A DNA stretch of 64,000 nt from Halobaculum halobium. Lineage in GTDB: Archaea; Halobacteriota; Halobacteria; Halobacteriales; Haloferacaceae. The notes beneath the pieces were generated by a model. It searched no databases. It was given only the letters and a program-made list of their open reading frames with translations, and was not told where the DNA came from. Within the stretch, counting starts at the first letter, position 1; each line of letters starts with the position of its first letter. Positions 41,325 through 59,510 of this stretch are shown here, in pieces. The DNA is taken from the NCBI RefSeq assembly GCF_030127145.1, contig NZ_CP126158.1, forward strand, positions 2,666,001 through 2,730,000, read 5' to 3'. The position numbers and the translations under genes were made by a program.

Positions 41325-41352
41325 GGATCGTCCCTTCGACGGCGTCGCGCCC

Positions 41353-42240
41353 TCACTCCTCGGTGACCGCCTCGCTCGGGTCGACTGCCTCCCCGGCGAG
41401 TTCGTCCACACCCCTCCGGTCGCACAGGTCGTACAGCGGGCAGGCCTCCGGTCGCTTCAGGCAGGCCGGGTCGCGGGCGGTACAGTACTCACGTCCGAAC
41501 TGGATCATCGCGGTGTGGCCGAAGCCGCATTTCTCGGGCGGCACCGCCTCCTCTAGTGCGGCCCGTACTGCCTCGTGGTCGGCATCCCCGGGCGCCAGCC
41601 CCATCCGGCGGGAGATGCGATGGACGTGCGTGTCAACGGGAAAGACGCCGCCGCGGCCGCCGGCGAACAGGAGGACGCAGTCGGCGGTTTTGGGCCCGAC
41701 GCCGTCCATGTCGAGCAGCGTCTCGCGGACCGTGGCCGGGTCCGCCTCGCGAACGAAGGCGTCGAACCCGTCGGCGCCGCCGTACTCCTCGACGACGCGC
41801 TCGGCGAGCGCGACGATCCGCTCCGATTTCACGTTGTACAGCCCTGCTCCGGAGATAGTCTCGGCCAATTCGTCCCGCGCGGCGTTCGCCAGCGACGACG
41901 CCAGATCCCCTGGCCACTCGGATCCGCCACGCTCGCGGCCCGCGTCGCTCCCCGATCGCGTCGCCGCGGCGCCGGGCGGCTCCTCCGGCCCGTACCGCGC
42001 CAGCAGCGCGTCGTGTGCCGGCTGGCTCGCCTTGTCGCTGGTGTTCTGCGAGAGGACCGTCCGGACCAGACATTCGAAGGCGTCCTGCCCGCCGTAGGCC
42101 TTGCGCCAGTACAGGTCGCCGAGGGCGTCGACGACGGCCTCGCCGCGCGTCGCCGGCTCGTCAGCCGAGTCGAACGCCGCCGGACGGCCGCCGCCCGCGT
42201 CGCCGCCGCTGATGTTCTCGGCCGGTTCGTCGTCGGACAT
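41353..42240 (-). CDS. nth: Endonuclease III-type DNA glycosylase/AP lyase
   Basis: Base-excision repair enzyme of 295 residues. The helix-hairpin-helix MDGVGPKTADCVLLFAGGRG holds the catalytic Lys, and the Asp lies in PVDTHVHRISRRMGLA. The 4Fe-4S loop reads C-X6-C-X6-C-X5-C (YCTARDPACLKRPEAC, then PLYDLC), four residues longer between the second and third Cys than bacterial Nth. An Ala/Ser/Gly-rich insertion at about 95-120 separates LVRTVLSQNTSDKASQPAHD from the repair core. The start MSDDEPAEN at 42240 is preferred over an ATG 27 bases upstream. Confidence 0.9.
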   Translation of the reverse strand: MSDDEPAENISGGDAGGGRPAAFDSADEPATRGEAVVDALGDLYWRKAYGGQDAFECLVRTVLSQNTSDKASQPAHDALLARYGPEEPPGAAATRSGSDAGRERGGSEWPGDLASSLANAARDELAETISGAGLYNVKSERIVALAERVVEEYGGADGFDAFVREADPATVRETLLDMDGVGPKTADCVLLFAGGRGGVFPVDTHVHRISRRMGLAPGDADHEAVRAALEEAVPPEKCGFGHTAMIQFGREYCTARDPACLKRPEACPLYDLCDRRGVDELAGEAVDPSEAVTEE

Positions 42241-42337
42241 GGCCGCCGTTCGGGCGTCATCGTACAAGAACCGTCGCCCGCGCGGTCTGGGTGCCTGGTG
42301 GTCGGGCGGCCTCCCCGCGTCAGCCGGTGGTCGCCGG

Positions 42338-42808
42338 TTACGGTTCGACGCGCAGCGTCACTGTCAGCGGTGCGCCCCGCTCCAGCGCGGTCACGAGCCG
42401 TCGGTCGAAGTCGGCGGCGGCCTTGTCGGCGTCGACCATGATCGTCCGCTCGTCGACGTAGTCGCTGGTGCGTCCGACAATGCTCCGGTCGCCCTCGTAC
42501 GATAGGTCCGGGTGGCCGCGTCCCGTCACCGTCTCGGTCGCGTCCGCGGCGCCGAACTCGGCGACGATCGTCGCCTCCCGCGAGCGACACGCCTCGACGA
42601 ACGACCGCGGCACGTCCGCCGGAGTCGTGTCCGCCTCGATCGCGAGGATGCAGTCGCCCGCGGGCGTGAGCCAGTCGTCGCTCGTCACCTCGAAGGTGCT
42701 CGTGTGCTCGGCGCTGACGTGCTCGTGGCCCGACGCGCGGACGGTCACCTCCCGGATCGGACCCGCGGTCGTCGTCGCGTCCGACTCGCTCGACGCCTCG
42801 TCGGTCAT
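42338..42808 (-). CDS. DUF371-family protein
   Basis: A 156-residue cytoplasmic protein. Family-like blocks are VTVRASGHEHVSAEHTSTFE, TSDDWLTPAGDCILAIEADT and TGRGHPDLSYEGDRSIVGRT. DUF371 is widespread in archaea and uncharacterised; the conserved His and Cys positions are suggestive but unproven. It lies between endonuclease III and the DUF368 gene on the same strand, with gaps of 97 and 53 bases. Confidence 0.8.
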   Translation of the reverse strand: MTDEASSESDATTTAGPIREVTVRASGHEHVSAEHTSTFEVTSDDWLTPAGDCILAIEADTTPADVPRSFVEACRSREATIVAEFGAADATETVTGRGHPDLSYEGDRSIVGRTSDYVDERTIMVDADKAAADFDRRLVTALERGAPLTVTLRVEP

Positions 42809-42861
42809 ATCGGTGCTGGGCGACGGCGGGACAAAACGCCCGCGGGTCGCGATCGAGGCGA

Positions 42862-43875
42862 TCAGTCCAGGTCGACGCCGCCGGCGAGCCGGTCGAGTCC
42901 GACGACGAGAAGCGCGCCGACCGCGGCCGCGACGACGAACTCGCCGCCGACCGTCGCGGTCCAGGCACCGATCTCCTCGCCGACGCGGACGACGGGCGCC
43001 CTGAGTGCGCCGACGATGAGGCCGATCAGGAACGCGAGCGTCGCCTCGCGCCGCGCCGCGAGCGCCGCCCGAACCGCGTGGGCGACGGTGAGCAGTCCGA
43101 CGACGCCGCCCGCGAGGAACGCGACCACCGGGATCCCGGCCTCGATGGCCGCGGCCATCGGGCCGCCGGTCGCGACCGCCAGCAGCGAATCGACGAACAC
43201 GGACAGCGCCTCGGTCATCCGCTCGTACTGGCCGAGGATGACCAGCAGGAGCGACCCCGAGATGCCGGGGAGGATCATCGCGCTCACCGCGACCGCGCCC
43301 GCGAAGAACGTCGCGAGCGCGGTCTCGCCGAGCGCCGCGGACGCGCGCCCGGAGGCGACGAACGCCAGCGCCGCTCCCGCGACGGCCGCGGCGGCCCGGC
43401 CGGCGGTGTCGACGCGGAACTCGTCTCTGAGCACGACCGCCGACGCGCCGATGAGCCCGAAGAAGAAGCCGTACGTGAGCACGGGGGCCGTCTCCAGCGC
43501 GACGTGTAACACCCGGGTGACGGTGAGGATCGCGGTGGCGATTCCCGCGCCGAGCGCGAGCAGGAACGCCCCGTCGATGTCGGTCCAGACGGCGCGAAGC
43601 TGGTCTCGGTCACCGAGGAGCCCCTCGATCGTGCGGCGCGCGAGCGACGGCGAGGCGGCCGTGACCGCGGCGATGAGGCGGTCGTAGATCCCGGTGATCA
43701 ACGCGATGGTCCCGCCGGAGACGCCGGGGACGGCGTCGGCGGTCCCCATCGCGACCCCGCGGAGGTACGTGCCGATCGGTCCCTCGTCGCGTTCGATCAG
43801 GGTCGCGTCCGCCGAGCCGGTCGCCTCCGAATCGTCCGCCGCGTCGACTGCGTCATCGCCGCTGGAGTCCGTCAT
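42862..43875 (-). CDS. DUF368 (PopT-type) polyprenyl-phosphate translocase
   Basis: An integral membrane protein of 337 residues with 8-9 helices and the two DUF368 inverted motifs, ADAVPGVSGGTIALITGIYD near the N-terminus and SAMILPGISGSLLLVILGQY in the middle. DUF368 proteins were identified in bacteria as undecaprenyl-phosphate translocases (PopT), which return the lipid carrier to the cytoplasmic face. Here the gene starts immediately after the aglB stop with no gap, so a role in recycling dolichol phosphate after N-glycan transfer is a natural inference. The first 28 or so residues are an acidic cytosolic tail. Confidence 0.85.
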   Translation of the reverse strand: MTDSSGDDAVDAADDSEATGSADATLIERDEGPIGTYLRGVAMGTADAVPGVSGGTIALITGIYDRLIAAVTAASPSLARRTIEGLLGDRDQLRAVWTDIDGAFLLALGAGIATAILTVTRVLHVALETAPVLTYGFFFGLIGASAVVLRDEFRVDTAGRAAAAVAGAALAFVASGRASAALGETALATFFAGAVAVSAMILPGISGSLLLVILGQYERMTEALSVFVDSLLAVATGGPMAAAIEAGIPVVAFLAGGVVGLLTVAHAVRAALAARREATLAFLIGLIVGALRAPVVRVGEEIGAWTATVGGEFVVAAAVGALLVVGLDRLAGGVDLD

Positions 43876-46800
43876 CTACGGCGTGACGTGTCGGCGGATC
43901 GGAGCACGGACCGATGGTGCGGCCCCGTCCGTCGCACCCGTTCCCGCGAACGACTCGCCGCTCGGGTCGTCGCTCGTCGAATCGAGCCCGTTCAGCGAGT
44001 CGAACTCCGCGGGCAGCGAGCTCGTGTTCTCGGAGTCGTCGGTCGTGTTGTTCGTCTCCGAGCCGTTCTCCTGGGCGCCTTCGGGCGCACGGAGGACTTC
44101 CTCGGACAGCGTCACCGTCGCGGTCTCGTCGGTGTCGCCGTTGACAGCGCCCTCGCTCACGTTGAACGTCCCTTGGTTGCGGACGATGTACGCCGACTCG
44201 TTGCTCTCGACCTCGCCGGTGACCGTGTACGCGCCCGTCGCGCGGACGCTCACGTTGGTGTAGCCGTTCTCGGGGCCGTACTCGTCGTAGCCGGCCGTCG
44301 AGTAGGGGACGGTGAACTCGAACTCGCCGTCCTCGTTCGCGGTAGTCTGCTGCTCGTAGGTGAACGTCGACGCGTTGCCGCCGGTGCCGCCCTCGGGAAC
44401 TTCCATCTCGACGGTCGCGGTGACCGTCTCGTTGGGGTCGGCGCCGTCACCCTCGACGGTCGCGCCGGGCACCTTCTCGAACGTCTTCACCCACTGCGGC
44501 TGCGTCTGCTGCAGCAGCGACGGGCGCAGCCCCAGCGACTGCGACTCCTGCAGCACCGTCCGTTGGTACTGACTCGAGGCGTACGCCGAGGTATCGGAGG
44601 TGCTCACGAGCCGGTAGTGCTCCAACGCGGGCACGGACTCGCGCGGGAACGCGCCGACGCCGCCGATCTGGGCGGTGCCGTCCTCCTCGACGAACTGCTG
44701 TGCGGCGCTCTCGTTGGCGAACGTCCGCACCGCGGTTGCGTTCTCGCCCTGCGGTAGCACCTTGTAGCTGGTTCCGTCCTCGGCGGAAACGGTGTCGTAG
44801 TCGAACACGATCACCCGGTCGCCGAACAGCGTCTGGACCGCCGGGTCGGCGCGACTGCCGTGGTACATGTACAGCCGCACCATCATGCTCTCGTAGTAGC
44901 GCTGCTTCTTGTCTTGGAAGGCGACACCGTAGCGAGTGCCCTGCTGGGTCTCCTGTGCGCGCAGCGTCGGCTCGTAGTAGTCCGAGGCGTTCGTGTCGTC
45001 GTCGAAGACGACGGGCGCGCCGAACTTCGAGCCGACCGTGACCATCTGCCAGTCGATCATCGTGTACCGCATCTGTTCGGCCTCGCCGTCGTCGTCGATG
45101 TTCGCGAGCACCTCGCTCGCCTCCTCCTCGCTGGGTGCGAGGAGGTAGTTCGCCGCGGAGGTCGCACCCTGCTGGAACGGGTTGGCGTGCGGGATGCGCT
45201 CGCCGCGCGTGGTGATCCAGTGCCCGTAGTCCCACCACGACATCACACCATAGGCACCCTCGGGATAATCGTAGTCGCCGGCGGCGGGCCGCTGGTAGGT
45301 TTCGTAGTAGTCGAGTTCGTCGGCGTTGCCGGCGCCGCCGAGGTTGCCCTCGGCGGGCGTGTTACTGTTCATTTTCTGCAGACTCTCGTCCCAGATAGTC
45401 ACTGCGCCCGGACCGGTGCTGTTGCCGACGCCGACGGCGGTGTTCGTCTTGTCGATGGACACCTGGCCGGTGCTCCCCAGCGACAGCGGGACGACGAGCA
45501 CCGGACCGAGGACGACCAGCACCGTGAGCACCACGGCGATGATCTGGTACGTCTCCACGTCCGGCATCGAGAGGTCCGCCGAGAAGTCGATCCCGATAAC
45601 CGCGAGGATTTCCCGGAGGAAGTAGGCGTTCATTCCCGCGACGGCGACCGCGAGGTAGTAGTTGAAGCGCACCTGCGTGAACGCCGCCGCGGTGATGAAC
45701 GCCGCCCACACGAACACGAACAGGTGTTCGGCGTCATAGCGGACGCGCGCGGCCGCGCCGAACACGAGCAGCGCGACGAGCGCGAGGCCCGCCACCTGCG
45801 GGTTGAGTCCGAGCCCGCTCGCGAGGTCGTTGAAGATCGGCGCTCCGACGAACACGAACAAGACGACGAGCGTCGAGCCGGCGAGGTAGTAGTAGTCGCT
45901 CGTGGTGCCGCGCTTCCACAGCGGCTTGACGAGCATCCACACCGCGGCCGCGAGGGCAGTGATGAACGCGAAGCCGTACTCGGCGAGGACGACGCCGAAG
46001 CCGCCGTAGTACTGGACGAGCCCCGACTGGAGGAACGGCTGGGCCTCGCCGATAGTCCGTGCTGTCGCTGTAGCAGAGAAGCCGACGAACCGGAGGAGGT
46101 TGCTCTCGATCGTGGTGAACGGCGCCGCCTCGACGAAGATAACGAGGAGGACGCCGACCGCGCCGAGCACGCCGACCGTCGCCGCGAACCCGTCGTCGTT
46201 CAGTCGTTCGTCCGCGAACTCGCGGGCGTCAAGCTGACGTGCAAGGAACGCGAGGAAGACGGCGCCCGCGGCGGTCGCGAGCGCGAAGGCGGGCTGGATG
46301 AGGCTCATCGCGGTCGGGGAGAACGTCGCCTCCTCGAACTTAACCAGGGCCATGAGCGCCGCAACCACCATCGAGATAACCGCAACGAACGCGACGTGGT
46401 CCGGGGATCGGTCACCCGCATAGTCAGAGACGGCTTGGAACACGACGTATGCGGCGAAGATACCGAGTAGGAGGACGCCCGGTGGCCACACCCACAGATA
46501 CAGCCCGATCGCGAACCCCCCGAGTGCACTCCAGTACAGAGTGGGCTTCAGTTCGTCCCACTCGCTCGCTTGCACGAGTTCCCAGATGGGGCGGTCCCGC
46601 TGGGCGACTGCGAGCGCGACCATGATCGAGACGACCGCGAACGCCTGAAAGAACGGTTCCACAATGTTGTGGTCGGCGAAGCCGACGAGTCCGCGCCGGA
46701 GGAACGTTCCAGGCAGGAGCATCAGGATGACCGCGCCGAAAAGGCCTGCGAGGCGGCCCCCGAGGCGCTTCCCGATGAGATAGGTGGGGACCGCGATGAG

Positions 46801-47244
46801 CGCCCCGAAGACCGCGGGCGCAACGAGGAGGGTCTTGGCGACGAGTGCCTCGGAGGGGGCCCCGAGGCCGACGATGAGGGCTGCGGTGGCGACCAGTTGG
46901 TCGTAGAGCGTACCGAATTGGCCGGAGTTGGTCCCGAACGGGTAGTACGTCCACGGGTCCCACGGCATCGTGGAGGGCCAGTTCGCGACGGTGTACCGGA
47001 CCTGTCTGAGGTGGTACCACGCGTCGTTACCGTTGAAGTACACCTGCCCGTCGCGGATGAAGTTACTGTAGGACTGAAGGCGGACCCACAGCATGAACGC
47101 GACGATCGCGAGGAGCGTCGGGATATGGTAGAGGTCACCGAGGACATCGGTGGCCGACTTCCCCGCGAAGGAGTAGTCGAGGCCCGGGACGGAGGTGGCG
47201 GAGTTCCCACCGTCCGGGGTCGTGTCGCTATCGCTTCGACTCAT
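43876..47244 (-). CDS. aglB: Dolichyl-phosphooligosaccharide--protein glycotransferase AglB
   Basis: Archaeal STT3-type oligosaccharyltransferase of 1122 residues that moves the lipid-linked glycan onto Asn of S-layer and other exported proteins. The membrane half (about residues 40-620) has 11-13 helices and the acidic motif GNDAWYHLRQVRYTVANWP. The catalytic WWDYG motif is at 670-674. A DW motif region (TMIDWQMVTVGSKFGAPVVF) follows. A long beta-rich C-terminal region ends in an Asn/Ser/Thr-rich stretch. The ATG at 47244 is preferred over an upstream one at 47331 because a TATA-like GCTTATCC (47268-47275) lies about 28 bases before it. Confidence 0.95.
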   Translation of the reverse strand: MSRSDSDTTPDGGNSATSVPGLDYSFAGKSATDVLGDLYHIPTLLAIVAFMLWVRLQSYSNFIRDGQVYFNGNDAWYHLRQVRYTVANWPSTMPWDPWTYYPFGTNSGQFGTLYDQLVATAALIVGLGAPSEALVAKTLLVAPAVFGALIAVPTYLIGKRLGGRLAGLFGAVILMLLPGTFLRRGLVGFADHNIVEPFFQAFAVVSIMVALAVAQRDRPIWELVQASEWDELKPTLYWSALGGFAIGLYLWVWPPGVLLLGIFAAYVVFQAVSDYAGDRSPDHVAFVAVISMVVAALMALVKFEEATFSPTAMSLIQPAFALATAAGAVFLAFLARQLDAREFADERLNDDGFAATVGVLGAVGVLLVIFVEAAPFTTIESNLLRFVGFSATATARTIGEAQPFLQSGLVQYYGGFGVVLAEYGFAFITALAAAVWMLVKPLWKRGTTSDYYYLAGSTLVVLFVFVGAPIFNDLASGLGLNPQVAGLALVALLVFGAAARVRYDAEHLFVFVWAAFITAAAFTQVRFNYYLAVAVAGMNAYFLREILAVIGIDFSADLSMPDVETYQIIAVVLTVLVVLGPVLVVPLSLGSTGQVSIDKTNTAVGVGNSTGPGAVTIWDESLQKMNSNTPAEGNLGGAGNADELDYYETYQRPAAGDYDYPEGAYGVMSWWDYGHWITTRGERIPHANPFQQGATSAANYLLAPSEEEASEVLANIDDDGEAEQMRYTMIDWQMVTVGSKFGAPVVFDDDTNASDYYEPTLRAQETQQGTRYGVAFQDKKQRYYESMMVRLYMYHGSRADPAVQTLFGDRVIVFDYDTVSAEDGTSYKVLPQGENATAVRTFANESAAQQFVEEDGTAQIGGVGAFPRESVPALEHYRLVSTSDTSAYASSQYQRTVLQESQSLGLRPSLLQQTQPQWVKTFEKVPGATVEGDGADPNETVTATVEMEVPEGGTGGNASTFTYEQQTTANEDGEFEFTVPYSTAGYDEYGPENGYTNVSVRATGAYTVTGEVESNESAYIVRNQGTFNVSEGAVNGDTDETATVTLSEEVLRAPEGAQENGSETNNTTDDSENTSSLPAEFDSLNGLDSTSDDPSGESFAGTGATDGAAPSVRAPIRRHVTP

Positions 47245-47351
47245 TGCATCGATGGACTTGGAAAACGAGGATAAGCCTTGTGAAGTGGTCGCCCACACTT
47301 CGTCCACAAGAATGCACAACACGTAAGCCACAGACGGTTCTGCTACCGTGT
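47245..47351. promoter_or_regulatory. Divergent promoter region aglB / AglG-like gene
   Basis: The aglB TATA-like GCTTATCC is at 47268-47275 on the minus strand. The plus-strand gene begins at GTG 47352, with a weak AT-rich element (ACACGTAAGCC, about 47319-47329) upstream of it. The 107-base gap therefore probably serves both directions. Confidence 0.5.
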
Positions 47352-48272
47352 GTGCAAGTCTCCGTCGTCCTCTGCACGTACACGGAGTCGATGTTCGTGG
47401 ATTTTTGCGAGGCGGCGGACAGTATCCTCAACCAGTCCTATGAGGAAGTGCAGTTGGTCATCGTCGTCGACGGCAACCATAACCTGTACGACAGAGTGAT
47501 CGAGGAGTACGGGGATAGGTCCGATGTCGTGACCCACTGCAACGACTGGAACGTCGGTCTTCTAGAGAGTCGGAATACCGGTGCTGAACTCGCCGACGGA
47601 GACGTGGTCGCCTTTATCGACGATGACGCTGTGGCGGATAAGCACTGGGTCGAGGAACTCGTTGGGAGCTACGAGGCGCAAGACGCAGTCGCGGTCGGAG
47701 GGAAGATGACCGCCGATTGGGTTGCGGGGCGCCCCTCCTATCTCCCCGAGGAATTCTTCTGGCTTGTCGGCGTGACTCATCGGGGGTTCGCCGATGGCCC
47801 CGGCCCAGTCCGAAACACATTCGGCTCGAATATCTCCTTCGACCGAGAGGTGTTCCTCCATCTTGGAGGCTTCGACGCAGAAGTCGGGGGCCGCAAGGGC
47901 GACAAGAATCTGCAGGGCGGCGAGACGGAACTGTGTGCGCGCCTTCGCAAAGAGTACGGAATGAGCGTCTGGTACAATCCTAATGCGACGGTCGCACACA
48001 AGGTATATGAATATCGAACTGACATAATCTGGCTGCTCGACCGGGCGTTTTGGCAGGGCTACTCCAAACGCGGGATGCAACAGCTTGTCCCCGACTCGGG
48101 CGGCGAAGAGGGTGAGTTTCTCGGCGACCTGCTGCGAGAGTACACTCCCGAACGCTTGTATCGCTTGTTTCGTGATCCTTCCAGTCCAAAAGTTCAAAAG
48201 TTAGTGCTGTTGCTGGTGCTAACAGGAGCAGTCGGCTGTGGGTACGTGTACGGTATTGCTAAGTGGGGTTGA
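47352..48272 (+). CDS. AglG-like family 2 glycosyltransferase
   Basis: A 306-residue transferase for building the dolichol-linked N-glycan. The GT2 fold begins at once (QVSVVLCTYTESMFVDFCEA), with NTGAELADGDVVAFIDDDAV providing the metal-binding DDD. Further on are GGFDAEVGGRKGDKNLQGGE and ETELCARLRKEYGMSVWYNP, the ED-type region for acceptor handling. A C-terminal hydrophobic helix (KLVLLLVLTGAVGCGYVYGI) anchors it. It resembles AglG, a glucuronosyltransferase of Haloferax, in size and context. GTG 47352 is the only start that gives the full fold. GC content is visibly lower than in aglB. Confidence 0.82.
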   Translation: MQVSVVLCTYTESMFVDFCEAADSILNQSYEEVQLVIVVDGNHNLYDRVIEEYGDRSDVVTHCNDWNVGLLESRNTGAELADGDVVAFIDDDAVADKHWVEELVGSYEAQDAVAVGGKMTADWVAGRPSYLPEEFFWLVGVTHRGFADGPGPVRNTFGSNISFDREVFLHLGGFDAEVGGRKGDKNLQGGETELCARLRKEYGMSVWYNPNATVAHKVYEYRTDIIWLLDRAFWQGYSKRGMQQLVPDSGGEEGEFLGDLLREYTPERLYRLFRDPSSPKVQKLVLLLVLTGAVGCGYVYGIAKWG

Positions 48273-48274
48273 TA

Positions 48275-49465
48275 ATGGAGGGCGAAAATGAATCCGGCGA
48301 CAACTGGACTGGTGGGGACTCCGAAGACATTGGCGACGTAAACCCCCTTCCGGGCGTCTGTGTCGTGACACACCCGCTGAGTCCTGCTGGAGAGAATGCA
48401 ACACGGACTCTATTGAACGTTCTTGCGGCGATTACGACTGTCTCTCTGGTGACCGCTGACCTTCCGGAGAACTCGTCGATCTGGGACGATCACCTTGTTT
48501 TCGAGGTATCTGAGCACGGGGCTGGTCAGTCAAATATCCTCATTGCTGCGTATCGCTTCCTGCGCAATCAGCTCCGGATGGCAGCGCGGATACGCGAGCG
48601 TGATGAAGAAATCGTCTTGTTCTTCGGAGCCACCTCGTATCTTCTCCCTGTCTTGTTCGCAAAGGCGATCGGGAAGACAATTGTTGTCGAACCGCGGGGA
48701 GACGTTCCGCTGACGCTCCGGTTGAACTGGGAACAGCGGATGCCGGCGCAGCTGGCTCGTGTGCTCGCGGGACTCGTCCGGGCGCTCGAGGAGGTGTGTT
48801 ACCGCGCCGCCGACGCAATCGTGACGTACACGCCGTCGATGGCTTCTGAACTGGGATTGACACGCTTCGACGGGAAATTGTACCCAAACGGCGCACGGTA
48901 CGTGGATACCGACGCTTTCGATGTGCGTGTTCCATTCGAGTCGCGGGGGGAAGTCGTCGGGTTTGTCGGTCGGCTGGACGAGGAAAAGAACGTCCGATCG
49001 CTCTTGGCGGCGGCGCAGAATCTACCCGAGTCGACTAATTTCCGGTTCATCGGCGATGGTCCACTATTTGAGGAGCTGGAGACCACAGCGACGACAGACC
49101 GAGTCAGCTTTGCCGGCTGGGTCGACCACAATGAAGTCTCTGCGGAACTGAACGAGATGCGCCTGCTCATCCTTCCGTCTGACCCGACGGAAGGACTCCC
49201 GACGACGATACTGGAATCGCTCGCGTGTGGGACTCCCGTGTACGCGACACCAGTCTCTGGCGTCCCAGACGTGGTCAGAGAGGGGGAGACAGGCTTTCTC
49301 ATGAATGACCCATCACCCGAGGGCATTGCGGCTGATGTCGCCACTATCCTCGACCGGGACGACCTTATCGAGGTGAGCCGGCAGGGGCGAGCAGAAGTCG
49401 TGCGCGACTACGACTTCGAGGCAGCGACCCATCGGTATCGGGATATCTTCGCAGACCTCGCATGA
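48275..49465 (+). CDS. Family 4 glycosyltransferase
   Basis: A 396-residue GT-B fold enzyme. The N-terminal domain starts PLPGVCVVTHPLSPAGENAT; the donor-binding half shows VVGFVGRLDEEKNVRSLLAA, RFIGDGPLFEELETTATTD, and the E-X7-E motif in EGLPTTILESLACGTPVYA. It lies 2 bases after the AglG-like gene on the same strand and shares its lower GC, so the two likely arrived together and add strain-specific sugars. The ATG 48275 is used; a GTG 12 bases upstream is possible. The exact sugar cannot be told. Confidence 0.85.
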   Translation: MEGENESGDNWTGGDSEDIGDVNPLPGVCVVTHPLSPAGENATRTLLNVLAAITTVSLVTADLPENSSIWDDHLVFEVSEHGAGQSNILIAAYRFLRNQLRMAARIRERDEEIVLFFGATSYLLPVLFAKAIGKTIVVEPRGDVPLTLRLNWEQRMPAQLARVLAGLVRALEEVCYRAADAIVTYTPSMASELGLTRFDGKLYPNGARYVDTDAFDVRVPFESRGEVVGFVGRLDEEKNVRSLLAAAQNLPESTNFRFIGDGPLFEELETTATTDRVSFAGWVDHNEVSAELNEMRLLILPSDPTEGLPTTILESLACGTPVYATPVSGVPDVVREGETGFLMNDPSPEGIAADVATILDRDDLIEVSRQGRAEVVRDYDFEAATHRYRDIFADLA

Positions 49466-49561
49466 ACAGAGGCGACTGGCGTGGTGACTACCAGTCTCGC
49501 GACTACGGGCCGCTGTCTGTTCCCGAAACCCCTAACTCACACCCGGAACCACTCCACACAC

Positions 49562-50569
49562 ATGACTGACGACGTCTGCGTACTCCTCCCCACCTACGAC
49601 GAGGCCGCCACCGTCGCAGACGTCGTCACGGAATTCCGCGACCACGGCTTCACTAACATCCTCGTCATCGACGGCGGCTCCACGGACGACACTCGCGAAC
49701 GCGCTCGCGATGCCGGCGCGCGCGTCGAGATCCAATCGGGCTCCGGCAAGGGCCAGGCTATCCGCGAGGCCGTCCGCGAGCACGTCGACGCCGAGTTCGT
49801 CCTCATGGCCGACGCCGACGGCACCTACCGCGCGAGCGACGCCGACGCCATGCTCGAACCGCTCCGAAGCGGCACCGCCGAACACGTCATCGGCGATCGC
49901 TTCGCCGACATGCACGACGACGCGATGACCGGCCTCAACCGCGTCGGCAACACGATTTTCAATAGCCTGTTCTCGCTCATTCACCGCGAGGACTTCGGCG
50001 ATATCCTCTCGGGATACCGCGCCTTCACCGTCGACTCTTTCAAGCGCCTCCGCCTCTCGGCGGACGGCTTCGGTATCGAGACGGAACTGGCCGTCGAGTG
50101 CGCGCGCCACGGCGTCCGCACGACCGTCGTCCCGATCACGTACCTCCCGCGTCCGGACGGCTCGAACACGAACCTCCACCCGGTGCGCGACGGGGGGATC
50201 ATCCTGATGGCGATCTACCGGCAGGCGAAGACCTCGAACCCGCTGTTCTACTTCGGGAGCGCGGGCGTGGCCTCCGGGCTCGCGGGCGGACTCGTCGCCG
50301 CGTACGTCGCCTATGACTGGTTCGCAAACGGGATCTCCCACAACGTCCTCGCGATCGTCGCGGGCGTCGGGGTCATCCTCGGCGTGCAACTGCTCATCTT
50401 CGGCGTGCTCTCGGACCTGCTTGTCACGCTCCACGGCGAGACACTCGACCGAGTCGAGGCGCTCGAACGGGAGATGCCGGCCGGAGCGGACACGAGTAGC
50501 GAGGAAGCCACCGAAAAAGGGGTGACACCTACGAAAGACGAGGGATGTGTGGGCCCCCCCGAGCAATAG
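49562..50569 (+). CDS. aglJ: AglJ-like dolichyl-phosphate hexosyltransferase
   Basis: Family 2 glycosyltransferase of 335 residues that in Haloferax loads the first hexose of the N-linked glycan onto dolichol phosphate. The catalytic domain has CVLLPTYDEAATVADVVTEF, the metal site EFVLMADADGTYRASDADAM and LSGYRAFTVDSFKRLRLSAD. Two C-terminal membrane helices follow (LFYFGSAGVASGLAGGLVAA and LAIVAGVGVILGVQLLIFGV). GC returns to the genome level here, unlike the two genes before it, which marks AglJ as the conserved core and the previous pair as the variable part. The ATG at 49562 gives the family start MTDDVCVLLPTY. Confidence 0.88.
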   Translation: MTDDVCVLLPTYDEAATVADVVTEFRDHGFTNILVIDGGSTDDTRERARDAGARVEIQSGSGKGQAIREAVREHVDAEFVLMADADGTYRASDADAMLEPLRSGTAEHVIGDRFADMHDDAMTGLNRVGNTIFNSLFSLIHREDFGDILSGYRAFTVDSFKRLRLSADGFGIETELAVECARHGVRTTVVPITYLPRPDGSNTNLHPVRDGGIILMAIYRQAKTSNPLFYFGSAGVASGLAGGLVAAYVAYDWFANGISHNVLAIVAGVGVILGVQLLIFGVLSDLLVTLHGETLDRVEALEREMPAGADTSSEEATEKGVTPTKDEGCVGPPEQ

Positions 50570-51223
50570 CCTCTCCTGTGTAGTGCTGCCTCACTAGATC
50601 CGGAGGACGAGTAGACTGTTGCCCGAGGGTAGCCCCCCTCGCTCAGAATCACAGAAGCGCAGGTTCGAGCAACGTCGAAGGAACCTCTACCGCGGTCAGC
50701 GTACCTTCACAATCGATTCAGCTCCCCGGTAACAGGCGTTTGAACAAGTGTGTGGGTGATTGTGGCGTTCTCGGTTCGGGTACGATCGTCGGCCACGATC
50801 GCTCACTACATGGCGTCTATCGGCCGATACCGCGCGGAGCAAGAAAATACGGGATGACACGACAACTCACTCGATACAGGACTCCCAACGGTGCTGATGA
50901 AAACCCGTAGACTGCGACCAGGTGTGACCGCTCCTGTGCTGTGATGATGTCCCCCGGCAGCGCTTCTTCGAGGCACTGCTTGCGGCTACACGCTGATCAC
51001 CTCGGCCGCAGGCACCCACAGTCTGCCACTCGTCTATTGATACGACTCTTTCCGGAGGTCCATCGCTGCTGTGAACGCCGCCGGACGTCCGGTGTGGCTT
51101 CGATACCCCCTTTCGGACAACAGGAGCGAGCGAGTCCGATTCGGGACAAGAGGGCCGGCCGATAGTGTTCGACCGTTCGGAGTAGACACTCGGATGATGG
51201 AAACCGGACCTGATCGGATATGG
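50570..51223. other. Gene-poor stretch between aglJ and the DUF5789-like gene
   Basis: About 650 bases with no convincing frame on either strand. The base composition is closer to even than in neighbouring genes and open stretches are short and Arg/Ser-rich. No inverted repeats of insertion-sequence type or tRNA-like folds were found by eye. It may be remnant DNA from rearrangement at the end of the glycosylation locus. Confidence 0.5.
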
Positions 51224-51550
51224 TCAGAACGGTAAGAGTGCGCGAACCCGCCCGAGCAGTGACCCCGCGCCGCTGCGCCGCCGGTCCTCGAAGATCGGAT
51301 GGAGACGATTGAGCAGGTCGCGCTCGGTCTCGAACCGTTCCTCCGGGAGCTCGCGGAGCACCTCCGCCAGATCGAGCGTGTTTCCCGCGGCGTCGTAGGG
51401 GACGCTCGTGTTCCGCATCGACGCGATCAGCTCCTCGGTCGTCGCCGGGAACCGCACGCCCGCTCGGTCGAGGCGGGCGTCCAACGCCGCGATGCCGAAC
51501 TCGATCGACTCGGGCTCGCTCGTGTCCCCCTGCGGCGGTCTGGCTGCCAT
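51224..51550 (-). CDS. Small haloarchaeal protein, DUF5789-like
   Basis: A 108-residue acidic cytoplasmic protein ending ALLPF. It has the segment VRFPATTEELIASMRNTSVP, YDAAGNTLDLAEVLRELPEE and RDLLNRLHPIFEDRRR, which I associate with the haloarchaeal DUF5789 family. There is no catalytic motif. It stands divergent from the CopG-like gene with a short gap. Function unknown. Confidence 0.7.
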   Translation of the reverse strand: MAARPPQGDTSEPESIEFGIAALDARLDRAGVRFPATTEELIASMRNTSVPYDAAGNTLDLAEVLRELPEERFETERDLLNRLHPIFEDRRRSGAGSLLGRVRALLPF

Positions 51551-51691
51551 TACGCCGAGTTGCCGCCCCGGGGACTAAAGCGGACGGGCCCACGGACGCG
51601 ACGCAGGAGTCGGTGGCTCGCACGACGCAGACGGCGTGTCGCCGGCGGCGGCTCCGTCGCGCTTATCGGTCGCGCGCCCGTTCCCCGAGCC

Positions 51692-51901
51692 ATGACCGAC
51701 TACACCACCGTCTCCATCCCGAAGGACCTCGCCGAGCGCGTCGAGGAGACGCTCGAGGGGACGAGCTTCTCGTCGACCTCCGATCTCGTGCGCTTTCTCC
51801 TCCGAAGCATCGTGATCCAACACCAGAAACAGGGGTCGCTCTCGGAGGCACAGTTCGAGGAGATCACCGAGCAACTCCGCGACCTCGGCTATTTAGAGTA
51901 G
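51692..51901 (+). CDS. Ribbon-helix-helix (CopG/Arc-like) DNA-binding protein
   Basis: A 69-residue protein whose first strand TDYTTVSIPKDLAERVEETL and helices TSDLVRFLLRSIVIQHQKQG give an RHH fold; such proteins dimerise and repress promoters. The remainder is a short helical tail ending DLGYLE. A TATA-like GCGCTTATCGG (51658-51668) lies about 28 bases before the ATG, consistent with a leaderless message. No toxin gene follows, so it is probably a stand-alone regulator rather than an antitoxin. Confidence 0.82.
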   Translation: MTDYTTVSIPKDLAERVEETLEGTSFSSTSDLVRFLLRSIVIQHQKQGSLSEAQFEEITEQLRDLGYLE

Positions 51902-51930
51902 GGACGCAGCCGACTCTCACTTATCACGAC

Positions 51931-52377
51931 TCAGTCCTCGACCCGCTCCTCAGGCGGGTGCGCGTCGACGACGACCAGTTCCCGCCGACGCCCCCGGCGG
52001 TCGTACGCGGTCACGTTCTCGGAATCGTACGGCGGCACCGCCACCAGCACCGCGGCCGCGAGGTCGTCCTCCTCGGTGAGCCGGCGGTCGCCGTCGGGAT
52101 GCGAGAGAAAGCGTGCACGGCCCGCAGGTCGACCCAGATCCATCCCGAACACAGCCGAGACGGACCCGGCGGCCGCCGGGAAGTAGAAGTGCGTGAGAAC
52201 CGGCGTCGACGGATCCAGATCCGCAGGTCTGTCGACCAACTCGCCTCCGGGCGTCGCGTCGAGGACGACGTTCTCGGCTTTGGGGTCGGCGTCGGCCGCA
52301 CGTTCGACCAGCAGCGAGAGCAGGTCGGCGGTGATGTACACTGGCGCGGGATCCTCACGGCTGGGAGTGGCGTCCAT
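51931..52377 (-). CDS. Hypothetical haloarchaeal protein
   Basis: A 148-residue acidic protein: APVYITADLLSLLVERAADA, VLTHFYFPAAAGSVSAVFGM and DDLAAAVLVAVPPYDSENVT. It has the regular haloarchaeal codon pattern and looks like a genuine alpha/beta protein. No known domain, membrane helix or metal site is recognised. It is 81 bases downstream of the frameshifted gene on the same strand and convergent with the CopG-like gene. Confidence 0.6.
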   Translation of the reverse strand: MDATPSREDPAPVYITADLLSLLVERAADADPKAENVVLDATPGGELVDRPADLDPSTPVLTHFYFPAAAGSVSAVFGMDLGRPAGRARFLSHPDGDRRLTEEDDLAAAVLVAVPPYDSENVTAYDRRGRRRELVVVDAHPPEERVED

Positions 52378-52458
52378 TCCAACCGATCCGTCCGTCGTCG
52401 CGTCGGCGGGACCGTCGCCGCCGGGGCCGCCGCCGGTTGGGGGATCACGACGGGGCGC

Positions 52459-53138
52459 TCACCCGAGGAACTGCCCGATGGCCTTCGCGTACAGTCCCGG
52501 CGCGTTTCCGCGCGAACTGTCGAGCGCGGCCGCGAGCTCGCGTCCGGCGTCCTCCATGACGCCGGCGCCGTGTCCACACAGCACCCGCTCGGGGTCCAGC
52601 CCGGACAGCGCGCGCCGCGGCGGGAACAGCCGGAGCATCGGGTGAACACCGAGGGTCTCGGCCCCCGTGCGCATGTACGAGGAGGCCCCGACGGACTCGG
52701 GGACGTACAGCGTGCCGCCGTCCTCGTCGTACAACCCGACCTCCTGCCACGGCGGGATCGACGAATCGCGGATCGTGATCGCCTGCAACCCGCCGAGTTG
52801 GCGTCCAAACCGCTCGACGGGCGCGTCGAGCTTCGTGGCGACACCAGTCATCCAATCGGGCACGTACACGGGCACGTCGTGGCGGGTCGCGATCGCCGCC
52901 GCGTCGCGCTTGTGGCGATCGAGACAGACCACTACCCCGGTGACTTCCCCTCCAGATCAGCCAGGAGGTCGTCGACACCGTCGGCGTCCACCGGATCCAG
53001 TACCCACACGTCACCGTCGACGGACAGGGCGTGGCTCGCGCGCTCCATCGTCTCGTCGGGATAGGCGATCCACCCAACGCCGTCGGTGAACTCGTCGATC
53101 ACGGTGAGGTCGGCGTCGCCGGAACCTTTCATCGCCAT
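52459..53138 (-). pseudogene. Conserved haloarchaeal gene split by a one-base deletion
   Basis: Two frames join into one protein of about 225 residues. The 5' part (from ATG 53138, MAMKGSGDADLTVIDEFTDG to DDLLADLEGKSPG) ends at TAG 52932-52934. Reading one base differently at the G run (52947-52950) gives GEVTGVVVCLDRHKRDAAAI and continues without a stop through RDSSIPPWQEVGLYDEDGGT to GLYAKAIGQFLG. Restoring one G to the four-G run repairs the frame. The whole resembles a haloarchaeal family of unknown function with VLDRHKRDAA and HPMLRL blocks. Either an assembly error or a real inactivation. Confidence 0.72.
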
Positions 53139-53160
53139 CGGAAGACGAAACGGGCGCCGC

Positions 53161-53171
53161 GGGCTTAAGTG
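53161..53171. promoter_or_regulatory. Shared TATA-like element of two divergent genes
   Basis: GGGCTTAAGTG contains the palindrome CTTAAG. It lies about 27 bases before the minus-strand ATG at 53138 and about 30 bases before the plus-strand ATG at 53197, so one AT-rich core appears to serve both directions. Confidence 0.5.
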
Positions 53172-53196
53172 GGGTGCCGCCGGAAGGGTGGACGAG

Positions 53197-53964
53197 ATGA
53201 CGACGCGACCCGCGGCGACGCAGCCGCGCCCGGCGCTCGCGTCGCTCGCGCTGGAGGTGTCCGACCTCGGGCGCGCGGCGACGTGGTACGCCGACACGTT
53301 CGGTCTGGTTCCGACCCGTCGAACCGCTACCGAGTGTGCCTTCGACGTCGGCGGCACCGAGTTCGTGCTCCGTCGGCCCGACTCGGTCCCGCGCGGCGGC
53401 CTCCACACGCACTTCGCGTTCGAGACGCCCGCCCGCGAGTACCCCGCTTGGCGCGCTCGCTTCCCCGACGCGCCCGAAATTGATTTCGGCACCTTTCGCT
53501 CGCTATATCTCGAGGACGACGACGGCCACGCCCCGGAGATCGGCGGGACGGCCCCCGACGGGACCGGAACCGGTCTCGTCGGCGTGTTCGAGGTGGTGCT
53601 GGAGGTGGCGAACGTCGACCTCGCGAGCGACTGCTGGTCGGCACTCGGGTTTTCGGCGGTCGACCGCGGCGACGGGCGGCGACGGATCCGGATGCGCGGC
53701 CCCGCCGGCGCCGACCGACAGTTCGACGTGGAACTGTGGGAGCCCCAGCTGGGACTGGCGGGCGCCCGTGGTGGCGTCCACGTCGACCTGGCGTTCCGGG
53801 TACGCGAGCCCGCGGCCGTCGCGGAGCACGCCTACGGCGACCTCCCTTCGGTGACAGTCCAAGAGGCGCCCGATGGGTCGGTCGAGCTGTACGACCCGGA
53901 CGGCCACCACCTCGTGTTGCTGCCCGACGACGAGAGTACGGACACGGCAGAGGAGGAGCCGTGA
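53197..53964 (+). CDS. VOC-family (glyoxalase/dioxygenase-like) protein with two modules
   Basis: A 255-residue protein with tandem VOC folds: module 1 about 15-120 (ALASLALEVSDLGRAATWYA, GGTEFVLRRPDSVPRGGLHT) and module 2 about 125-245 (VGVFEVVLEVANVDLASDCW, GSVELYDPDGHHLVLLPDDE). H-x-x-F (THFAF) and ELYDPDGHHL hold possible metal ligands. Haloarchaeal relatives are often annotated as glyoxalase, but the substrate cannot be named. The ATG at 53197 is chosen by the shared TATA element upstream. Confidence 0.8.
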   Translation: MTTRPAATQPRPALASLALEVSDLGRAATWYADTFGLVPTRRTATECAFDVGGTEFVLRRPDSVPRGGLHTHFAFETPAREYPAWRARFPDAPEIDFGTFRSLYLEDDDGHAPEIGGTAPDGTGTGLVGVFEVVLEVANVDLASDCWSALGFSAVDRGDGRRRIRMRGPAGADRQFDVELWEPQLGLAGARGGVHVDLAFRVREPAAVAEHAYGDLPSVTVQEAPDGSVELYDPDGHHLVLLPDDESTDTAEEEP

Positions 53965-54467
53965 CGGAGATCCGGTCTGGTCCGACGCCGACGAAGGCGG
54001 CGTCGCCGGACCCACCGAGCCGGCCGAGGGCGATTACCGGCACCTCGTGACCGGGGACGTGGCGAACACGCCGAACCCGACACGCGCGAAACGCGAGTTG
54101 GACGTGACGATCGGCGCGTCGCTGTTCGGGCGTCAGTAGTTCTGGCGGTCTCAGTCTCGTTGCTATTCGTCTATGCAGCAAGATCTCGGGTGAGGTGAAA
54201 TCTCACCGAAGTGCCGGATTTCTCACGATGAGTGAGAAGCCTTGTTGAACCCTATTGGTCGGACCCGATTCTCGATGAACTAGCCGTTACCGCTGAACGC
54301 TCTTCCAGTTCGACATGTTGTTCATAGAGCCATGCTGAATATCCGGCGCAAATCCCCTTTTGGTGACCCGGCGACGACGAATAGCAAGCCACCGAGAGCA
54401 ACTTCCGAAGAACACCAAGTGCGGCGTAGTTCGCCGATGCTCTTCGAAGATATGGATCGAATCCACA
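53965..54467. other. Spacer with small inverted repeats, no clear gene
   Basis: About 500 bases. A short open run from about 53975 to 54139 ends PTRAKRELDVTIGASLFGRQ but has no start codon in frame. An inverted repeat TTCTCAC-GATGA-GTGAGAA lies around 54221-54239, and a GGTGAG/CTCACC pair lies close before it. GC falls from about 54150 on. Nothing here can be called a gene with confidence. Confidence 0.4.
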
Positions 54468-55001
54468 CTACCGGATAATTGACCGGAGATGCGTGCAGAG
54501 GTCTTTTACCGCCTGTGTGACCCGTCGCCGGCGACGTGAGTTGACATCGACTTCTATGCCGTGGCTCTCGATCCAGTTCCGCATTTTCCTCCGACCGACT
54601 TTCCGCTTGATTCCGACCTGCCGGAAGTGTTTGATCGGGTGTCGCAGCCAGCTGTATTCCTCGTGGGCGAACACGTCGATATACTCCGGGGAGTGGGCGA
54701 TGAGGATGACGTGGATCTGTCTGTCGGCCAGCACGGTCCGCCGATACGTCCAGCTCCCGTTTGGCTCCGACCCAACTGACGGCTGATGATACCACGCCAG
54801 TGGGTCCCACTCGAACCCGTGTTTCCGGAGTGTTTCTGTGAACTCGTCCAGCGGCTGTTGAACGGTGCCGACATATTCGGTATCACGAAGGCGATACTCG
54901 GGCTGTCCGAGAGCTCGGCCGAGTCGGGTGATCAACGGACCGAGCCGCGTTCTCACGCGGGAGGGAACATTGGGTTCGAGAGTCTCAACGATAGACTCCA
55001 T
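54468..55001 (-). CDS. Hypothetical protein in low-GC accessory region
   Basis: A 177-residue protein: MESIVETLEPNVPSRVRTRL, YVGTVQQPLDEFTETLRKHG, FEWDPLAWYHQPSVGSEPNG and VILIAHSPEYIDVFAHEEYS. The C-terminal third is basic (KRKVGRRKMRNWIESHGIEV). It reads as a real alpha/beta protein and I recall similar haloarchaeal hypotheticals located near mobile DNA. Codon use is less GC-biased than in core genes. Function unknown. Confidence 0.6.
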   Translation of the reverse strand: MESIVETLEPNVPSRVRTRLGPLITRLGRALGQPEYRLRDTEYVGTVQQPLDEFTETLRKHGFEWDPLAWYHQPSVGSEPNGSWTYRRTVLADRQIHVILIAHSPEYIDVFAHEEYSWLRHPIKHFRQVGIKRKVGRRKMRNWIESHGIEVDVNSRRRRRVTQAVKDLCTHLRSIIR

Positions 55002-55124
55002 TCGGCGCCCGTTGGGGTTCCATCATCTCGAATGTGTCGAACCGGCGAAACGTAAGTGAACTGAGCGATATCCCGCAACCGTGTCCCGACCGAGATCACC
55101 CCGTGCTGACTACACCCTCTGTAC

Positions 55125-55152
55125 GTAGCGAAGCTACCCGCCATATGGAGGG
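55125..55152. repeat. Small hairpins, possibly a remnant insertion-sequence end
   Basis: GTAGC-GAA-GCTAC (55125-55137) runs straight into a second stem CCC-G-CC-ATAT-GG-A-GGG (55137-55152), followed by GGATTCTTACGG. Adjacent hairpins of this kind recall the right ends of IS200/IS605 (TnpB) elements of haloarchaea. No tnpB or tnpA frame remains nearby, so this is only a suggestion. Confidence 0.3.
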
Positions 55153-55175
55153 GGATTCTTACGGTCTAATCTAGA

Positions 55176-55192
55176 GTGGAACAGCCGCTGAG
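55176..55192 (+). repeat. 17-bp near-direct repeat, left copy
   Basis: GTGGAACAGCCGCTGAG matches GTGGAACAGCCACTGAG at 56146-56162 in 16 of 17 positions. The two copies flank the SDR gene (55320-56084), as expected for a duplicated target or the ends of an inserted unit. Confidence 0.5.
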
Positions 55193-55319
55193 TGAATCTG
55201 CGAATTGATCGTAACTGTTCCTACAACTCGGTGACTGATCTCTGGAACGATCTGGCCAGATTTCGCGTGATAGTGCCCAACCACGACGTTGATACGTGTT
55301 ACACGCGAATTTTTGTGTT

Positions 55320-56084
55320 ATGGACTGGACAAAACGACACCGTACTGTCGTAATCACCGGGGCAAACGAGGGGATCGGCTATCATCTTCTCACCTCGCTC
55401 GTCGAGGACGGCTACCGAGTTGCTGGACTCGATATCAACGGAGAGCACATCGAACCTCTCCAAAACAGCCACCCTGAATTGGTGCGTTTTATCGACTGTG
55501 ATGTGACCGTAGATGAGGACGTCGAGACAGCGATCGGGGAGGTCGTGAGCGAATGGGGACCGATCGACATCCTCGTCAACAATGCTGGAATATTCAACTT
55601 CGACCTCTTCGAGGACCAGACGCTCGCCGACACAAAACGGGAGTTCGAGGTGAACTACTTCGGCTATGTCCGGCTGATCCACGCGATCCTGCCGCATATG
55701 CGGGAACGGGGGGAAGGACTCATCCATAACGTGAGTTCCGGGGCAGGCCTCGTCGGCCATCCCGGACTCTCCGGCTATGCATCGACGAAAGGCGCTATCG
55801 AAGCGCTCGTGCGATCGCTGCGGCTGGAACTGCAACATGAGAATGTCACGTGTACAGTGATGCACCCGCCGCTCTCGAACACGCGCTCCACGGCCGAACT
55901 CGGCTATCCGGAATCCCTGCTGAGTGACCCGAAAACCGTCGGCCGCAAGCTAGCTGGGAAGATCGAATCGAGGGGGCCGGTTATCTACGCCGACTGGAAG
56001 ACGAAATTCGGCCTCGCCGTCTCGAAACGCGTTCCGTATCTCGTCCGAAAGGGAACCCAGCAGTTCGTCGAACCCACCGAGTAA
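55320..56084 (+). CDS. Short-chain dehydrogenase/reductase
   Basis: A classical SDR of 254 residues. The cofactor motif TGANEGIGYHLL (TGxxxGxG), NNAG in ILVNNAGIFNFDLFED, the catalytic Ser in NVSSGAGLVGHPG and YxxxK in SGYASTKGAIEALVRSL are all present. An Asp after strand 2 (VAGLDINGEHIEP) points to NAD preference, though this is indirect. It is flanked by 17-bp repeats and sits in low-GC DNA, so it is likely acquired. ATG 55320 gives the conserved N-terminus. Confidence 0.9.
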   Translation: MDWTKRHRTVVITGANEGIGYHLLTSLVEDGYRVAGLDINGEHIEPLQNSHPELVRFIDCDVTVDEDVETAIGEVVSEWGPIDILVNNAGIFNFDLFEDQTLADTKREFEVNYFGYVRLIHAILPHMRERGEGLIHNVSSGAGLVGHPGLSGYASTKGAIEALVRSLRLELQHENVTCTVMHPPLSNTRSTAELGYPESLLSDPKTVGRKLAGKIESRGPVIYADWKTKFGLAVSKRVPYLVRKGTQQFVEPTE

Positions 56085-56145
56085 ATCCTCTGTACTCATG
56101 GAAGGTACACCGCATGGCGAGGCAAGTTCTCGCACTCTGATCGGT

Positions 56146-56162
56146 GTGGAACAGCCACTGAG
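56146..56162 (+). repeat. 17-bp near-direct repeat, right copy
   Basis: GTGGAACAGCCACTGAG is the partner of the copy at 55176-55192, 62 bases after the SDR stop. Between it and 56300 no gene is seen. Confidence 0.5.
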
Positions 56163-56300
56163 CACGTGTGCGCGTGTAAATAGTTCTGGGGAGTTCCGTT
56201 CTGGTGACATTCACCGAGTTGATCGTGGTTGTGGTGAGATTTCATGTCACCGTCTCGCTAGGTGTCTCACTTTCATGGAGGCGCCGGTGAGTCGTCTCAA

Positions 56301-56618
56301 CTAGTAGTCTAATTGCTCTCGCAATTCGTAGTGCTGTGCATGATCGTCGAATCTTATGAGTACATCACGCGCCTCCTGAGGTACGTGAGCAGTCTCGTAA
56401 TCCTCCCCTGCGAATTGCTTCACCGATTCAATCGATCTGAACCTCATGATCGTGACGAATTCGACTTCCTCCGGGCGTGAGCGACGCAACAATCGAAACC
56501 CACGATACCCATCGATTTCTTTGTCGTCAAAGCTCGGGATTATCTCTTCTCTCAGAAGCCGCTCATACTCATCCGCGTTTTCCGGGGTCGTCCATCCGTG
56601 CCAAATGCGTTCGATCAT
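56301..56618 (-). CDS. ABM-domain (antibiotic-biosynthesis-monooxygenase-like) protein
   Basis: A 105-residue dimeric alpha/beta-barrel type protein: MIERIWHGWTTPENADEYER, REEIIPSFDDKEIDGYRGFR, VEFVTIMRFRSIESVKQFAG and YETAHVPQEARDVLIRFDDH. The motif pattern (W at position 6, GYRG, VTIMRF, F-A-G-E-D) is that of small ABM proteins, which act as cofactor-poor monooxygenases or stress proteins. The gene stands alone and is lower in GC than core genes. Confidence 0.75.
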   Translation of the reverse strand: MIERIWHGWTTPENADEYERLLREEIIPSFDDKEIDGYRGFRLLRRSRPEEVEFVTIMRFRSIESVKQFAGEDYETAHVPQEARDVLIRFDDHAQHYELREQLDY

Positions 56619-56833
56619 CGGTTCTCGTTGTCATTCGATCCTTTTCTGTCGGACGGTTATCGGTGTCATGAGGGAGTCTTCAAGTTGTAGCGAGCCAACC
56701 AATGCACCGGCCCCTTCCGATTTTCCCGGGGTTTGCATGCAGTACATAGCTGGCTCTCATAGAGTCGCCATATAGAACCACCAAACAGAATTTGATGGTA
56801 AGAATCTTTGACTGTGGTAGACTATATGCTTCT

Positions 56834-57559: not shown

Positions 57560-57618
57560 CTGCTGGAACTCTCCGACGCCCGTCCCGCCACGTCGTGCCG
57601 GGTCGAACCCGCCGACGC

Positions 57619-59441: not shown

Positions 59442-59510
59442 GGGCGGCGGTGCGCTCTCCCCGCCCACGAGCGGGCAGGAGGCGCCGCAATCGTTGCCAC
59501 CCGCGCCACG

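Follow-up and report, generated by a model that had tools for sequence, protein, structure and literature searches.

The closest described counterpart of the locus studied here is the glycosylation cluster of Haloferax, which is made up of the genes lying between aglB and aglJ and which, in the parts of the published account drawn on here, differs in composition between isolates, with lateral transfer suggested and surface types likened to serotypes (Shalev et al. 2018, PMC5867893). That Haloferax has an aglB-aglJ cluster, that this cluster varies and that it can be likened to serotypes has therefore been in print since 2018; what we add are the borders of the interval and direct comparisons of cassettes. 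The order of sugar addition given in the relevant sections of the work on Haloferax and Halobacterium is that AglJ supplies the first sugar, that the second, a hexuronic acid, comes from AglG or Agl25, and that the third is added by the next transferase, after which AglB carries out the transfer (PMC5867893, PMC8674786, PMC4335974). Haloferax volcanii mutants without aglG or aglI are among the material of one of these studies (PMC4335974). For Halobacterium salinarum, the same partial sources identify VNG1068G, VNG1067G and VNG1066C as AglB, Agl25 and Agl26, with Agl25 adding the first hexuronic acid and Agl26 the second (PMC8674786, PMC4335974), and they list Agl25, Agl26 and Agl27 as the second, third and fourth transferases (PMC8674786). 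Strains of Halorubrum lacusprofundi are described, in the excerpts used here, as having a variable 37-kb N-glycosylation region with aglB, which the authors link to virus pressure (PMC6011602). Passages of two other papers report paired exchange islands, named homeocassettes, in Halorubrum ezzemoulense (PMC11078007) and an effect of aglB loss that changed infection by one virus and left infection by another unchanged (PMC10384203). For Halobaculum, a limited search for literature on glycosylation or the S-layer, made over parts of the sources, returned nothing beyond a review of haloarchaeal viruses.

In this study we analyse the interval between aglB and aglJ in a window of 64,000 nucleotides from Halobaculum halobium (G000:C1:2666001-2730000, where G000 is the source genome; positions below are those of the window unless another genome or locus is named), with genes called mechanically from open frames and GC by codon position, and compare it with the corresponding interval in ten further Halobaculum genomes (G001 to G010). 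We conclude, with a probability of roughly 80%, that this interval is a slot for exchangeable glycan cassettes, of which G000 holds a two-gene version consisting of aglG and a GT4 gene. The conclusion draws on five observations: a contrast in GC3, a conserved frame, variable content, discordant histories and the positions of the borders.

The left anchor of the interval is aglB (43876..47244, minus strand, with its start ATG at 47244), which encodes the oligosaccharyltransferase, is transcribed away from the interval and matches TIGR04154 with 876 bits (cut-off 450) as well as the Pfam families STT3, AglB_core-like and AglB_L1. At the opposite edge stands the right anchor, aglJ (49562..50569, plus strand, ATG at 49562), the dolichol-phosphate hexosyltransferase gene, which is likewise transcribed away from the interval (TIGR04182, 436 bits, cut-off 325). 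Between the two anchors a scan of the sense frames finds two glycosyltransferase genes and no flippase gene, flippase-family candidates being located elsewhere in the genome, and no RNA family rises over threshold at 40000-60000 of the window. The first of the two genes, GTa (47352..48272, plus strand), belongs to the GT2 family and is identified as aglG by a match to NF041394 that spans positions 1-304 of 304 and, at 499.4 bits, exceeds the curated equivalog cut-off of 440. Its DDD, the acidic metal-binding motif of GT2 enzymes, is intact at residues 90-92; the frame is open from 47244 (TTG), and the family match begins at residue 1 of the reading from 47352.

The second gene, GTb (48263..49465, plus strand), overlaps the end of aglG and is assigned to the GT4 family by its matches to PF13692 (4e-29) and PF00534 (Glycos_transf_1, 2e-27, 96.6 bits against a cut-off of 26.4). 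Its reading frame suggests that it may start at the ATG at 48275 in place of the GTG at 48263. At residue 310 it contains EGLPTTILE, an instance of the EX7E motif that is a hallmark of GT4 glycosyltransferases and has the role of a catalytic motif. We also considered a third-sugar transferase of the AglI/Agl26 type, these being GT2 enzymes, and rejected this assignment: all four Pfam matches of GTb, the best of them Glyco_trans_1_4 and Glycos_transf_1, are to GT-B-type families, and none is to GT2. Of the solved structures, a diphospho-undecaprenol-linked GalNAc transferase, which we take to be PglA of Campylobacter, matches best (residues 171-397, E about 2e-12).

GC3 is 0.696 in GTa and 0.670 in GTb, against 0.898 in aglB and 0.869 in aglJ (third-position G/C versus A/T, the pair against both anchors pooled: chi-square 134, p about 5e-31). 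The initial annotation had described a lower-GC pair between aglB and aglJ, and both that description and its coordinates are correct; GC3 is far from equal across the locus. Among the 44 other ORFs of the window that pass a filter of at least 120 aa and GC3>GC1>GC2, the mean GC3 is 0.880 (sd 0.067) and none lies below GTa or GTb. Lower values are found among ORFs that the filter excludes, at 56301-56618 (105 aa, 0.58), 56792-57079 (95 aa, 0.60) and 14492-14764 (90 aa, 0.62), and an excluded frame at 395-946, probably spurious, has a GC3 of 0.67. A second low-GC3 patch, at 54468-57462, is similar to the pair or below it. This patch holds an SDR gene, an AbrB-like gene (under the model cut-off) and a 128-aa ORF overlapping the AbrB-like gene, and the VOC-type gene and leuA are separated by 4.4 kb in G000 and by 1.5 kb in G001 and G006, which suggests an insertion at these positions.

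How far base composition can be read as history is limited by the relatives. GC of the interval lies under that of the anchors in all 11 Halobaculum genomes, by 0.03 to 0.155, so that low GC cannot date the pair, and with the other low-GC3 patch in the window also in mind we do not accept GC3 by itself as proof of transfer. The GC3 of AglG is slightly lower than that of aglB in 22 of 32 loci, with a mean difference of -0.03 (two genomes entered twice), and the deficit in G000, at -0.16, is the second largest of the 32. In G002 (L037 8537-15153) the anchors have low GC3 too (aglJ 0.56 and aglB 0.70-0.77, with leuA at 0.90), a composition that would fit an import that brought its flanking sequence with it.

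The frame of the locus is constant throughout the genus: in each of the 11 Halobaculum genomes, one per species, a single contig carries both aglB and aglJ, and their transcription points away from the interval. The interval between them, whose edges were placed visually close to where the anchors start, measures 1.5 kb in G001, 2.2 kb in each of G000, G002 and G008, 3.7 kb in G003, 12.3 kb in G009, 17.1 kb in G005, 17.8 kb in G004, 21.8 kb in G010, 23.1 kb in G006 and 33.5 kb in G007. Glycosylation genes occupy it and vary among these relatives, and G001 retains no more than remnants. AglG is above its cut-off in four of the 11 genomes and GTb is found at E<=1e-30 in two, G000 and G008, so the pair, far from being common to all relatives, occurs in two of 11; GTb of G008 is interrupted by three frame changes, which may reflect decay or sequencing error.

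The content of the intervals was surveyed in 92 proteins, hand-picked from the mechanical calls with spurious-looking frames and the broken G008 GTb omitted. These include 15 GT2 (PF00535), 13 GT4 (PF00534), 10 phosphodiesterase-type, 8 sulfatase, 7 epimerase and 7 flippase-type (Polysacc_synt) proteins, a single protein being able to count under several families, and nucleotide-sugar enzymes are present as well. The recurrence of the sulfatase and phosphodiesterase-type families in the longer intervals is a hint of sulfated or phosphate-modified glycans. The interiors are not wholly unrelated, because one gene of ~1.2 kb, on its sequence a semi-conserved glycosyltransferase of the locus with weak matches to the AglG model in a 392-aa frame, recurs in six of the 11 intervals (G004, G005, G006, G007, G009 and G010, at 75-93% nucleotide identity with the G004 copy as query). 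It adjoins aglJ in G004, G005, G006 and G010 and lies inside the intervals of G007 and G009. In the 1.5-kb interval of G001 (L036 10503-12013) we see an IS1182-like transposase fragment and an apparent GT4 tail (below the cut-off), and no intact glycosyltransferase. Two of the anchors, G009 aglB (G009:C16:123273-126259) and G003 aglJ (G003:C1:1273813-1274695), are each called as two overlapping pieces and therefore contain a frame change in the gene or in the assembly.

Beyond the genus, AglG is above its cut-off in 95 of 170 genomes of the family. Distances between the genes are given among the matches listed, which represent 151 of the 160 genomes with aglB and 151 of the 164 with aglJ: AglG lies within 4 kb of aglB, start to start, in 78 of the 94 genomes with both on one contig, and aglB and aglJ are at most 45 kb apart in 73 of the 96 with both on one contig. 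Across the 18 other genera with a same-contig aglB-aglJ pair, again among the matches listed, the two are mostly 7-35 kb apart in 13 and far apart in g3, g6, g11, g16 and g21. An AglG near aglB is the norm of the family, and the word "inserted", which the initial annotation had used for the pair, is misleading; we rejected an insertion between ancestral neighbours: in most related genera the slot is larger, and the pair fills a short version of it. When GTb is sought at E<=1e-60, a level that omits four weaker matches, AglG is found within 4.2 kb of it in 14 of 14 family genomes and within 150 bp in nine, and on this count we regard aglG plus GT4 as a recurrent module and not a chance pair.

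The larger size of the slot in most related genera is a point in favour of the strongest competing explanation, that the short interval of G000 is a larger cluster deleted down to aglG and one GT4 gene with no import. Such deletion would also agree with the reduction of the G001 interval to a transposase fragment and a GT4 tail and with the three frame changes in GTb of G008. In G000, however, the pair is contiguous, overlapping and open, and it recurs as a unit in other genera; moreover, deletion alone leaves both the lower GC3 and the clade to which AglG belongs (see below) unexplained. We therefore consider contraction without import unlikely, if still the alternative most deserving of attention, and contraction and import can both be true together.

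Direct comparison of cassettes indicates that elsewhere in the genus a whole cassette has clearly moved. The sister genomes G004 and G006 have 98.5% nucleotide identity over the rpoB locus (4.8 kb), and eight genes of the region, among them both anchors, are 89.7-98.6% identical; the two genomes have in common 1,282 of 17,771 interval bases, which are those of the recurrent ~1.2 kb gene. G004 and the distant G005, with 94.5% identity at the rpoB locus, have 16,441 of the same 17,771 interval bases in common, in two main blocks of 88.4% (11.4 kb) and 86.4% (5.1 kb) identity. Outside the interval, identity between this second pair of genomes is 80.6% for aglB, 83.5% for aglJ and 74.7% for the gene that follows, all below the interval blocks, with local matches as the basis for the interval and complete genes for the anchors; two slow genes, leuA (91.1%) and ilvB (89.6%), lie above the interval. 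A search for recombination breakpoints in aglB and aglJ gave no mosaic breakpoint pointing clearly at the interval.

The pair in G000 also has relatives that differ from those of its surroundings. In a tree of AglG from 39 loci, which sample a subset of the 95 AglG-bearing genomes of the family, G000 and G008 are separated by a 100/100 branch from G002 and G003; the former have as companions loci of the genera g11, g14, g16, g19, g21 and g26, and the latter are closest to g12 and g17. Identity of AglG to that of G000 is highest in g14, g16 and most of g21 (63-67%, with two g21 loci at 52-53%), while identity of AglB to that of G000 is highest in g8, g9, g15, g17 and g19 (51-58%), with g14, g16 and g21 at 38-44% (N-terminal parts). 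These two deep clades of AglG, the frame and varied intervals seen in 11 of 11 genomes, the cassette common to G004 and G005 and the replacement between G004 and G006 together support, through the relatives and not by GC3 alone, the earlier proposal that sugar-adding genes are exchanged within a conserved frame.

The presence of the pair in both G000 and G008 allows more than one reading. The aglB tree contains a clade of G000, G007 and G008 (100/99) with G000 beside G008 (96/96), and the rpoB tree joins G008 with G007 (93/99) and places G000 without support; blastn of the G007 interval against that of G000 gives no coverage over 300 bases. Between G000 and G008, the nucleotide identity of the two genes of the pair is 82.9 and 80.5% and that of aglB 89.1%. 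Faster evolution, separate import and common descent would all fit the greater divergence of the pair, and the grouping of the two genomes in the aglB tree is what plain common descent of the pair in both would produce. From these comparisons the pair may either have been inherited jointly or have passed from one genome to the other. We found no close donor, the nearest GTb outside the genus being 64% and the nearest AglG there, among the loci compared, 67% identical, and so the transfer need not be recent; nor did plasmids yield any GTb at E<=1e-30. A scan of named genomes for GTb returned three loci, in Halobaculum saliterrae, in Haloarcula amylovorans (58%) and a bacterial GT4 (31%), and Halobaculum saliterrae WSA2 (NZ_WUUS01000005.1) has the same pair of aglG and GTb.

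A second alternative is that the pair is old and vertically inherited, was lost in the other species, and has low GC3 through weak codon selection on poorly expressed glycosyltransferases. It would account for the closeness of AglG to aglB in 78 of 94 genomes of the family (among the matches listed) and for the slight deficit of AglG in 22 of 32 loci, but not readily for a deficit as large as that of G000, for congeners whose AglG falls in a different deep clade, or for a genus in which a whole cassette has evidently moved. We judge it improbable, and clean vertical descent of the pair was rejected as the likeliest explanation. That an assembly error or contamination put low-GC foreign genes here is scarcely credible, since, for all that contig C1 has a redundant, partly repeated end and a start that repeats the window from inside aglJ, G008 has the same pair with the same neighbours and the redundant copy starts downstream of the pair. 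The redundancy of C1 concerns window positions 49992-64000 (G000:C1:1-73034 and 2715992-2828450), the repeat from inside aglJ being at 99.9%, and the end of the contig holds repeated copies of a ~22 kb stretch, as in an untrimmed or misassembled circle.

The borders of the exchangeable slot can be located from 55 genome pairs. On the aglB side, the median identity is 90% over the first 0-40 bp upstream and 29% at 51-170 bp, where one pair of the 55 (G000-G008) reaches 60%. On the aglJ side the corresponding medians are 68% and 34%, and five of the 55 pairs reach 60% in the outer stretch (G000-G008, G001-G007, and G004, G006 and G010 mutually); the last three genomes all carry the recurrent ~1.2 kb gene. 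Upstream homology thus mostly stops ~40 bp before the anchors, sharply at aglB and more weakly at aglJ. In each border block a TATA-like stretch precedes the start codon by about 27-30 bp, a distance that in haloarchaeal promoters suggests leaderless transcripts. The block upstream of aglB (47245..47284, minus strand, with a TATA-like box at 47266-47284) and the partly conserved block upstream of aglJ (49522..49561, plus strand, with a box at 49522) are probably, to judge from these features, the core promoters of the two anchors, and because identity falls ~40 bp upstream the exchangeable part seems to end at those promoters.

If the interval is an exchangeable slot, AglJ would place the first sugar onto dolichol phosphate as the invariant first step, AglB would move the finished glycan onto protein as the invariant last step, and homologous recombination in the flanks would exchange the interior, leaving both anchors undisturbed. 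A swap would be harmless to the anchors because both face outward and each probably has a core promoter to itself. In G000, AglG would most likely add a hexuronic acid to dolichol-phosphate-hexose as the second sugar, and UDP-sugar dehydrogenase-family genes present in the genome could supply its substrate. GTb, probably the third-step transferase, would most likely add a third sugar before transfer by AglB. Further sugars might come from enzymes encoded elsewhere, such as those of a second glycan gene group on C2. That group (G000:C2:201633-243191) comprises glycosyltransferase, UDP-sugar dehydrogenase-family and flippase-family genes. Exchange of the pair would then be expected to alter the S-layer glycan, as the initial annotation had supposed. 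We put forward more tentatively, and without leaning towards it, the idea that the slot is built for exchange, with leaderless outward core promoters as borders, such that any cassette could be inserted without breaking the first or last step; the minimal two-gene version in G000 would then make a trisaccharide whose third step is performed by a GT4 enzyme, a chemistry for which we found no description in the portions of the haloarchaeal N-glycan literature consulted.

An exchangeable surface-sugar locus in Halobaculum provides natural experiments, namely sister species in which nearly the entire cassette differs and distant species with a cassette in common. Given these natural differences, the relation of N-glycan type to mating and virus susceptibility becomes testable by cassette swaps in an archaeon that loves salt and is harmless.

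Bacterial O-antigen and capsule loci have conserved anchors, a replaceable low-GC interior and recombination in the flanks, and the initial annotation had compared the present locus with O-antigen loci. The analogy holds for the conserved anchors, for interiors that are largely different (with one gene common to six of 11) and for transfer between lineages; it does not extend to a flippase or polymerase, neither of which is encoded in the G000 interval, and the product here, unlike theirs, is a protein-linked glycan moved by AglB. Halorubrum lacusprofundi resembles Halobaculum in having divergent surface-glycan genes around aglB, but there the variation is between strains of one species, and the parts of that account used here describe no aglJ anchor (PMC6011602). 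Halobacterium salinarum, as far as the same partial sources describe it, is alike in that neighbouring locus numbers belong to AglB, a homologue of AglG and a transferase for the third sugar, and unlike in that Agl26 is an AglI homologue whereas GTb is a GT4 enzyme, and in that its cluster is longer. The Haloferax cluster, in the sections of its description drawn on here, has the same two anchors and a composition that varies between strains and species. Halobaculum departs from it as another genus, in which sister species differ over most of the interval, the interval can shrink to 1.5-2.2 kb and a GT4 enzyme probably performs the third step.
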